Assembly: GCA_025058345.1 (NCBI GenBank)
Contig: JANXEN010000001.1
Location: 196,481 to 260,480, forward strand
Length of the DNA: 64,000 nucleotides
Source: Sulfolobales archaeon
GTDB taxonomy: Archaea > Thermoproteota > Thermoprotei_A > Sulfolobales > NBVN01
Direction of reading: 5' to 3'
The notes below the pieces were generated by a model that saw only the letters and a list, made by a program, of their open reading frames with translations, ran no database searches and had not been told where the DNA came from. Below are positions 12,483-16,025 of this stretch, piece after piece. The position numbers and the translations under genes are program-made. Numbering within the stretch: position 1 is the first letter of the stretch; every line of letters starts with the position of its first letter.

Positions 12483-14309
12483 CTACTCTTCTACTTCTTC
12501 TACTGGTGATTCGTAGAAGTATTCATTGATGGATTTTTGATACCTATCTAAGTAACTATCAGGTTTATTTATCCTAGGTCTTCCTGTCTTTCGGTCCCTT
12601 CTAAAGGTTACATCTAACTCCTTAAGGAATACGTTCATACCTCGCTTAAGGCTTGTTGGACTAAATGCTTTACCGCGAACTCCTGGAACACCGCTAAACA
12701 CTATTATGTTATCAGCTATGTTATCTATTACTGTTAGGTCATGGTCAACGACGAAGGCTACCGCTTTCCTAACCTCCACAACTTTTTTAATTGCTTTACA
12801 AATAGTTAATCTTTCATCAACATCTACGAATGCTGAAGGTTCATCCAAGAGATAGATATCGGCGTCTCTAGCGAGTGTAACAGCTATAGCGAACTTCTGT
12901 AGTTCTCCACCGCTTAACTCGTTAATGTTTCTTAGATAAAGCTTATGGAGGTTTAACCTTTTTATAACATCGTTTTGGAACCAGTCACTGCAGGCTAGTT
13001 GAGAAGACTTACATAACTCCTTGAAAGCTTCCTCAACACTACTCCATTCAAATAATTCAGTCTTGACGTACTGGGGCTTATGACTTATTCTAAGCATCTT
13101 CGTAGTTAAGTAACCCTCATCAGGCTCTAACTCACTAGCGAGTAATTTTATGAACGTCGTTTTACCTATCGCGTTAGGTCCGACAACGCCTAGGACTTCC
13201 CCCTTACTTACATCGCCTGCATCAACACTTAACTCAAAACTGCCTATGGACTTCCGTAAATTCGGCCATGAAATGAACTTCTCCTCAAATCTTTCACTAA
13301 GCCCTCCACCGAACTTATTGAACGTTATCGGTTCAGGCCTTATTTTCATGTTCTCTGATGGTAGGTACCCGATCAGGAAGTTGTTTATTCCAGACCCTAC
13401 AGAGTAAACTTTAGAGAATATGCCGAAGACCCCTGGCTCACCGTAAACTATTGTTACGTAATCAGATACGTAATCAAGGATCGCTAAGTCATGTTCCACA
13501 ACTATTACGTACTTATTCTTAATGAACTCCTTAATAGCTCTAGATATCCTTAATCTCTCATAAACGTCTAAGTAGCTTGAGGGTTCATCGAAGAAAAAGA
13601 CGTCTGCGTCTCGCAGTAACGCTGCAGCTATGGCGAATTTCTGCAACTCACCGCCACTTAAGGTGGATACGCTACTGTCCCAGCAGCTATCTAGATTTAC
13701 ATACTTACGTACATCTCGGGCTATACCTCTCTCATCAATTCTATTGATAACATCCTTAACAACGCCCTTCACGAACTTCCTAATCACGTCTACATGTTGA
13801 ATCTTATGAACCACCCTTAATTCCTTATTAACCAATTTACTCAAATACTGGTACATTTCACTTCCTCTATAGAATTTGAGGACAGGATCCCATGATGGTT
13901 TAGACTCTAAATCACCTAAATTAGGTATAACTTCCCCTGATAGTATTTTAATGGCTGAGGTTTTACCTATACCGTTCTTACCGACTATTCCTAAAACCTT
14001 ACCGCCTATAGGTATTGGAAGTCCGTAGAGTTTGAAGGAATTAATACCGTATCTATGGACTAATTTTTTCTCAAGCTCGTCAGGTAGGTTAATTACAGTT
14101 ATAGCGTTATATGGGCACTTCCTAACGCATATACCGCAACCAACGCAAACCAACTCGTAAATAACCGGCTTACCCTTCCTGGATTCGGAAAGTTCTATAG
14201 CCTTAGAGCCTGACCTATTTATAGGGCAAAATCTAACGCACTCTAGATTACATTTATCCGGCCTACATAGGTCATAATCTATTACTGCAATCCTAACCAT
14301 CGCAACCAC
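12483..14309 (-). CDS. abce1: Ribosome recycling ATPase ABCE1 (Rli1)
   Basis: Two Fe-S cysteine clusters, twin ABC domains with LSGGELQK signatures and Walker motifs. Confidence 0.97.
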   Translation of the reverse strand: MVAMVRIAVIDYDLCRPDKCNLECVRFCPINRSGSKAIELSESRKGKPVIYELVCVGCGICVRKCPYNAITVINLPDELEKKLVHRYGINSFKLYGLPIPIGGKVLGIVGKNGIGKTSAIKILSGEVIPNLGDLESKPSWDPVLKFYRGSEMYQYLSKLVNKELRVVHKIQHVDVIRKFVKGVVKDVINRIDERGIARDVRKYVNLDSCWDSSVSTLSGGELQKFAIAAALLRDADVFFFDEPSSYLDVYERLRISRAIKEFIKNKYVIVVEHDLAILDYVSDYVTIVYGEPGVFGIFSKVYSVGSGINNFLIGYLPSENMKIRPEPITFNKFGGGLSERFEEKFISWPNLRKSIGSFELSVDAGDVSKGEVLGVVGPNAIGKTTFIKLLASELEPDEGYLTTKMLRISHKPQYVKTELFEWSSVEEAFKELCKSSQLACSDWFQNDVIKRLNLHKLYLRNINELSGGELQKFAIAVTLARDADIYLLDEPSAFVDVDERLTICKAIKKVVEVRKAVAFVVDHDLTVIDNIADNIIVFSGVPGVRGKAFSPTSLKRGMNVFLKELDVTFRRDRKTGRPRINKPDSYLDRYQKSINEYFYESPVEEVEE

Positions 14310-14348
14310 TCTAACAACTTATAAGCATTCCTAAATATAATTTAGTAG

Positions 14349-14402
14349 ATGATGAGTGGTGACGGCTTGGACGTAGGATGGCATTAAGTAAATCACTGCT
14401 GA
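14349..14402 (+). ncRNA. Candidate box C/D sRNA
   Basis: ATGATGA - 12 nt (gtggtgacggct) - TGGA - ... - CTGA; C' poorly defined. Confidence 0.35.
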
Positions 14403-14498
14403 TTAACCCCTAACTACGGTCTACCTTAAATTTAGAATCATGAGCAATAATATTTAAAATGATGTTAAAAAGACCTAAGTTTCACAGTTTCACGTAAA

Positions 14499-14585
14499 TT
14501 ACCACTCCTCTTCTTCCCACTCTTCTTCTTCCTCTTCCCACCACTCCTCTTCTTCTTCCTCTTCCCACCACTCTTCCTCAAACAT
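14499..14585 (-). CDS. 28-aa Glu/Trp micropeptide MFEEEWWEEEEEEEWWEEEEEEWEEEEW
   Basis: Direct translation of reverse complement: ATG...TAA, 28 codons; TATA-like 'cttatatatttaag' shortly upstream. Confidence 0.6.
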   Translation of the reverse strand: MFEEEWWEEEEEEEWWEEEEEEWEEEEW

Positions 14586-14756
14586 TTAAATCACTCACAC
14601 CTAACTACAAACTTAAATATATAAGTTTTTACTAGTGAGAAAGCTTGCTGAATACAGGTCACCGAATATTAACTACCTTTAACTCTCGCAGCTTTATTAA
14701 TAAGGTATATAAACCACACTGACGAATGTGATCAGGTAACGATAAGGTGCACGACT

Positions 14757-14924
14757 ATGCCTGTCACAGATCCGTTTAAGAGTAAGATAGTTGAGGAGAG
14801 ATTACTTAATAAGACTGTTTGTAGGAAGTGCGGTGCTACAAACCCGCCAGAGGCTGTTAAATGCCGTAGGTGTAAGAGCAGAAACCTAAGACCTAAGAAA
14901 AGGTTCGGCGGGAAGAAGGGTTAA
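14757..14924 (+). CDS. rpl40e: Ribosomal protein L40e (not in ORF track)
   Basis: [55 protein letters not shown]. Confidence 0.95.
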
Positions 14925-15649: not shown

Positions 15650-15736
15650 GCCGGGGTGGCCGAGCGGCCTAAGGCGGCGGGCTGCAGTGATTGTTGGAAA
15701 CCCGTTTATCCGCGGGTTCGAATCCCGCCCCCGGCT
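15650..15736 (+). tRNA. tRNA-Cys(GCA) with 12-nt canonical intron; CCA encoded
   Basis: GCCGGGG..CCCCGGC acceptor, U73, GCGGG-CTGCAG|tgattgttggaa|A-CCCGT; intron ~15688-15699 at 37/38. Confidence 0.85.
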
Positions 15737-16025
15737 CCACACACGGTTTAGTTAATGTAACGATGCTGAAGAATTTTTAATCTATTTCCTGTTGTTAATA
15801 GATATAGGTTGATGACGTATTTTATATGATTGGTCAACACCGGTAGTGGAAATAACTTAAACGTTAATGCGCATAACTCACCTATTCATTCAGGGTGTGT
15901 TCCCTCATAATTAGAGTGGTAAAGTTAATTCTAATTGACTCTAAGCAAGTTATGAAGTCCTACATCTTGGCGATTTACATATAAAGTTTGGGTAGGAGCG
16001 ACGTATTTATAAACAAAGTTTTTGT

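Follow-up and report, generated by a model that had tools for sequence, protein, structure and literature searches.

A minus-strand open reading frame (ORF) of 28 codons, located at positions 14499-14585 of a 64,000 nucleotide stretch of a Sulfolobales archaeon genome (contig JANXEN010000001.1; the whole stretch is referred to as the window), is almost certainly a genuine gene whose product acts in trans. Judged from the sequences collected here, this Glu/Trp ORF represents a family that is kept across the Thermoproteota. On the minus strand, from 14585 to 14499, the ORF reads ATG TTT GAG GAA GAG TGG TGG ... TGG TAA, with an ATG start and a TAA stop. The product, MFEEEWWEEEEEEEWWEEEEEEWEEEEW, contains by count 20 Glu, 6 Trp, one Met and one Phe; Cys is absent and the C-terminal residue is Trp. 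A preliminary description of the window had recognized the near-exclusive use of Glu and Trp; its figures of 19 Glu and 7 Trp are corrected by the recount, and the imperfect repeat of ~26 bp that it reported is actually a perfect in-frame duplication of 27 bp. Its placement of the ORF between ABCE1 and L40e, and of a TATA-like box upstream, holds (Table 1), and the frame contains no longer ORF of which the micropeptide could be the tail.

Conservation across the Thermoproteota

A search of relatives by way of L40e found MFEEEWWEEEEEEWWEEEEEEWEEEW in a second genus of this family, where the upstream box and the GAGTGATTTAAATG start context are shared. The back-translated pattern EEWWEEEE matched one locus in G000 and, across the order, a single locus per genome in 89 of 214 genomes, and the reversed control gave no matches. 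The relaxed pattern EEWEEE added further genera of the order and matched 230 of 398 genomes in a phylum sample; this pattern has a background, its control matching some genomes, and weight was therefore placed on the ORFs actually read out. Most loci retrieved from ~30 additional families contained short E/W arrays. In the phylum, 41 families, the Sulfolobaceae and representatives of other classes among them, contributed 160 loci to the retained set. L271, in which the array is the tail of a long protein, was left out, as were L311, L312 and L321 and the truncated or doubtful L126, L182, L317 and L318. One extra family, f28, has a similar ORF beside ABCE1. The retained ORFs have a median length of 30 aa, and the median peptide has ~70% acidic residues, six aromatic residues and no basic residue.

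Family f11, which we take to be the Sulfolobaceae, carries an Asp-containing form, e.g. [M]VFEEDWEEEFEEFEEEEDWEEEEDWEEEW, that mixes Glu and Asp freely and retains the aromatic residues. This form overturned a first reading of the pattern searches, according to which the Sulfolobaceae lack the gene. Absences hold for the patterns used and for the genomes covered, which were those of the Thermoproteota and Lokiarchaeota together with viral contigs. A few Asgard genomes were also positive: 119 Lokiarchaeota genomes yielded no more than three clear cases of an E/W-rich ORF (L282, L296 and L287, the last being a tail on a longer protein), many other, unrelated matches there fell inside long proteins, and five Lokiarchaeota genomes reached through loci gave no matches. 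A viral origin was rejected; the single match on a viral contig lies within a frame of 457 residues and was judged to be due to chance.

Conservation of the frame in relatives had been set beforehand as the test of the gene reading; the frame is kept, and the reading stands. The assignment to a single family is based on composition, size, start/stop architecture and position by ABCE1, as alignment cannot score homology in sequences of such low complexity. The preliminary description placed the peptide in no named family, in agreement with the databases: Pfam searches with five members, the window peptide among them, returned no family at E <= 10, and those with two Sulfolobaceae sequences returned none at E <= 1; NCBIfam gave no match, and the literature searched for the sequence motif yielded nothing pertinent.

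Codon usage and selection

The 4077 core codons of 145 peptides comprise 3150 Glu (GAA 1637, GAG 1513, a ratio of ~1:1), 740 Trp and 35 Asp, with no Lys (AAR) and eight GGR. Six to eight codons per ORF are dictated by the search pattern and the remaining codons are free. In a purine-rich RNA or DNA element without coding constraint, G/A exchange is expected at codon positions 1 and 2 too. As GAA and GAG occur about equally while Lys is absent and GGR is limited to eight codons, the codon counts indicate that selection acts on the peptide. Peptides are identical despite 1-14 nucleotide differences in the DNA. Trp is the last residue in 112 of the 145 peptides, and the spacing of Trp is variable, with E-runs mostly of 3-8 residues.

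Genomic neighborhood and expression signals

ABCE1, identified by PDB matches (6tmf and others), is the commonest neighbor of the micropeptide gene. It is found within 6 kb in 24 of the 41 families; in 21 of the 41, including f1, f2, f7, f11 and many families of other classes, it lies directly downstream on the same strand at a distance of less than 600 bp, an arrangement present in 74 loci. Ten of 11 Sulfolobaceae loci are directly upstream of ABCE1 with a gap of ~35-53 bp. Of the 83 loci in which the ORF is not just upstream of ABCE1, 62 have a convergent gene, on the opposite strand, as the next one. Given this orientation, the unchanged composition of the peptide in loci away from ABCE1 and the second copy (L304) that genome G190 has far from ABCE1, the peptide most likely acts in trans, any effect in cis being secondary.

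Among the other neighbors is a Urm1-like gene with a predicted ubiquitin fold (Pfam Urm1, E = 0.001, a match under the threshold). In 14 families, 47 loci have it at a distance of up to 6 kb, in many cases as the gene directly upstream, and in L098 it precedes the E/W ORF by ~60 bp. The f9 loci (e.g. L132-L151 and L178-L190) nearly all have a convergent gene, ~160-175 codons long, after the micropeptide.

Promoter, Shine-Dalgarno (SD) and terminator assignments were made as sequence signals. A run of five T residues (T5) occurs within 70 nt past the stop in 129 of 160 loci, as compared to 33.7 in shuffled sequences and 28 in an upstream stretch of equal length. SD-like GGTG/GAGG precedes the start in 110 of 160 loci (42.8 in shuffled sequence), and TATA-like hexamers peak at -45 to -36 over the same 160 loci. 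Boxes related to the CTTATATATTTAAG of the window occupy the same position in L092 and L096, and GAGTGAT(TTAA) before the start is retained in L092, L096 and L103.

Proposed mode of action

The reading preferred here, put forward tentatively and by analogy, is that the product may be a disordered acidic-aromatic docking or nucleic-acid-mimic peptide that acts in trans and serves the translation/recycling machinery in a Dss1/Sem1- or eIF3j-like mode. We infer that the chain, short and strongly acidic with Trp (or Phe) 'stickers' separated by Glu runs, is intrinsically disordered and docks by multivalent acidic-aromatic contacts. The Glu runs would pair with a basic surface and the Trp/Phe side chains would enter hydrophobic grooves, and as an outcome nucleic acid would be imitated or a protein-binding site occupied. 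The site of action would most likely be the translation/ribosome-recycling machinery, with the ABCE1-30S complex as the best candidate. An acidic-aromatic binding peptide had also been suggested in the preliminary description and is plausible; Cren7, named there as a possible target, is doubtful since the family reaches far beyond the order of the window. No toxin partner was seen for the antitoxin-like peptide also proposed there.

Several observations weigh against the docking reading. A single, precise interface is hard to reconcile with the variable Trp spacing. In 17 of 41 families (f4, f5, f22, f35, f37 and others), a few of which were sampled only from short contigs, the gene lies away from ABCE1, which may therefore be a long-kept neighbor and not a partner. 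The neighborhood also retains TFS, a Urm1-like gene, thermosome, FBPase and TPI, and TFS sits between micropeptide and ABCE1 in several loci (TFS, FBPase, TPI and thermosome were assigned by inspection of their sequences, and TFS also has a weak RPB9-ribbon match in Pfam). As the whole gene block is old, linkage alone is no proof of partnership. Near ABCE1, an acidic-aromatic ORF was absent from 15 of 16 loci in families f4, f5, f6, f15, f22, f28, f41, f51 and f64, the exception being in f28; f4, f5, f22 and f41 have the gene elsewhere or in other members. In two Nitrososphaeria-like families that were sampled, f15 and f51, the surroundings of ABCE1 contained no E/W ORF, and ABCE1 can therefore probably work without the micropeptide. 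A stronger version, by which the peptide would be an obligate disordered cofactor of ABCE1-driven recycling, near-universal in Thermoproteota and the counterpart in function, and perhaps in ancestry, of Dss1/Sem1 and eIF3j, appears rather improbable.

Dss1, eIF3j and LysW are analogies of the working mode; compared with each of them, the micropeptide differs in features that place it outside the respective group. Dss1/SEM1, a eukaryotic disordered adaptor of ~70 aa that belongs to the proteasome lid and PCI complexes, is likewise small and very acidic with Trp/Phe stickers in Glu/Asp runs, and the Sulfolobaceae form EEDWEEEFEEFEEEEDWEEEEDW is similar to it by eye. Trp/Phe pairs of the Dss1 type (aromatic-[ED]2-4-aromatic) were found in 139 of 160 peptides. 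Unlike Dss1/SEM1, the micropeptide has no Pfam match, is at most half as long, is nearly two-letter in composition and, in the loci read, is linked to ABCE1 and not to a proteasome gene. Dss1/SEM1 has a C-terminal amphipathic helix, whereas the micropeptides end inside the E/W array, mostly in Trp as counted above. Ubiquitin is bound by Dss1 through the motif X{W}XXX{W}X, in which X is acidic and Trp is preferred (PMC9381478). Binding of Dss1 to RAD52 is thought to use acidic and aromatic residues, and DNA mimicry toward RPA has been proposed (PMC6954417).

The N-terminal acidic segment of eIF3j/Hcr1, GDRWEGEDEDEDVKDNWDDDDDEKKEE, contains isolated Trp and resembles the micropeptide in composition, homology being not scorable at such low complexity. 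It belongs to a protein of 258 residues that also has folded and basic regions, whereas the micropeptide ends after 28 aa at an in-frame TAA. In yeast, eIF3j is reported to bind ABCE1 directly and to aid termination/recycling (PMC5737393); both proteins share PDB entry 6zvj. The amino-group carrier protein LysW is small and acidic like the micropeptide, which in contrast has no zinc ribbon and mostly ends in Trp instead of Glu. E/W tails also occur on small zinc-binding domains, in L208 on a zinc ribbon of the LysW type (Pfam Zn_ribbon_LysW, 27.1 bits, cut-off 27) and in L214 on a Cys-rich domain without confident match.

Alternative explanations

A polycation sponge, i.e. a buffer or chaperone for polyamines, Mg2+ or basic proteins (Alba/Cren7, free ribosomal proteins) that would act through Glu carboxylates and Trp cation-pi contacts, is unlikely. 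The near two-letter composition and loose spacing suit non-specific multivalent binding, and f22 loci have downstream an AdoMet-decarboxylase-like (polyamine) gene, assigned by reading the sequence; the strong preference for Trp, also at the C-terminus, and the ABCE1 linkage nevertheless appear more specific than a sponge needs, and the Sulfolobaceae swap Glu and Asp yet retain the aromatics.

Somewhat less likely still is a cis-acting leader, in which translation of the acidic run, with ribosome destabilization, or oligo-T termination would set the expression of downstream ABCE1 or TFS-ABCE1. The 74 same-strand loci upstream of ABCE1 fit this explanation, and runs of consecutive acidic residues reportedly destabilize ribosomes (PMC9718836). 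Among 53 close pairs, with the stop 25-260 nt before ABCE1, T5 is present in 52 spacers and ABCE1 shows no excess of TATA-like boxes (12 versus 14.0 in shuffled sequence), which points to joint transcription past a partial terminator in those lineages and would also allow attenuation there. Leader peptides of the TrpL or MgtL type share with the micropeptide the short ORF, the downstream T-tract, found between peptide ORF and gene in the spacers just described, and the frequent position upstream of one gene (ABCE1), but the micropeptide often has no same-strand gene downstream at all. The convergent next genes, the distant copy L304 and the constant composition away from ABCE1 likewise stand against a leader, and in the window ABCE1 has its own TATA-like box (~14317-14326; ATG at 14300), with a divergent small RNA (sRNA)-like element intervening. 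A leader/attenuator sensing Trp or Glu charging, as first suggested, is disfavored as the general function by gene orientation, and may apply locally.

That the peptide is a receptor or shuttle of a Urm1/SAMP-like modifier with a ubiquitin fold, its W-(acidic)3-W arrays serving as disordered ubiquitin-binding motifs, is quite improbable. The arrays match the ubiquitin-binding motif of Dss1 given above (PMC9381478); aromatic-[ED]2-3-aromatic occurs in 90 of 160 peptides, and a Urm1-like gene is often near. The Urm1 match is, however, below the Pfam gathering cut-off, the linkage is weaker than that of ABCE1 and is missing from the window, and the motif affinity reported in PMC9381478 is low (mM range). 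A simple-sequence repeat with a chance open frame, to which the perfect duplication in the window would correspond, has a negligible probability and is dismissed by the codon counts, with GAA and GAG freely interchanged, by the empty reversed control, and by the start, frame and stop kept over the phylum.

Features of the window

The coordinates of the features discussed are summarized in Table 1. The C/D-box-sRNA-like element scores 16.9 bits (E = 0.048) with Rfam sR28, under the gathering cut-off of 39; ATGATGAGTGGTGACGGC from this element recurs, at times altered, in L092, L103, L106, L116, L118, L122, L130, L170 and L171. At 15650-15739 (+) ARAGORN called a tRNA-like gene; the anticodon it assigned has 4 bases (gcag), which is unusual and possibly reflects an intron or a misfit.

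Table 1. Features around the micropeptide ORF in the window
Feature	Coordinates	Strand	Basis and remarks
E/W micropeptide ORF, 28 aa	14499..14585	-	Reading of the sequence and similar ORFs in 160 loci/41 families
Perfect in-frame tandem duplication, 27 bp = 9 codons, within the micropeptide ORF	14520..14573	.	
TATA-like promoter box CTTATATATTTAAG	14612..14625	-	Center ~35 nt 5' of the micropeptide ATG
SD-like AGGTG (14602-14598) and GTGAT (14594-14590), just 5' of the micropeptide ATG	14590..14602	-	
Oligo-T TTTTT, terminator-like	14467..14471	-	27 nt past the micropeptide stop
ABCE1, ribosome splitting/recycling ATPase	12483..14309	-	Downstream of the micropeptide, same strand; PDB 6tmf, E = 1.6e-220
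L40e gene	14757..14924	+	Other flank of the micropeptide ORF
C/D-box-sRNA-like element (ATGATGA ... CTGCTGA)	14345-14404	+	Between micropeptide and ABCE1; Rfam sR28

Significance

This family of peptides built essentially from two amino acids is apparently undescribed, and was probably overlooked because its members are short and of low complexity. With it, one could test directly whether archaeal information processing, too, is served by disordered acidic-aromatic adaptors of the kind known from eukaryotes (Dss1, eIF3j). A counterpart next to ABCE1 is present in what we take to be the genetically tractable Sulfolobus acidocaldarius.
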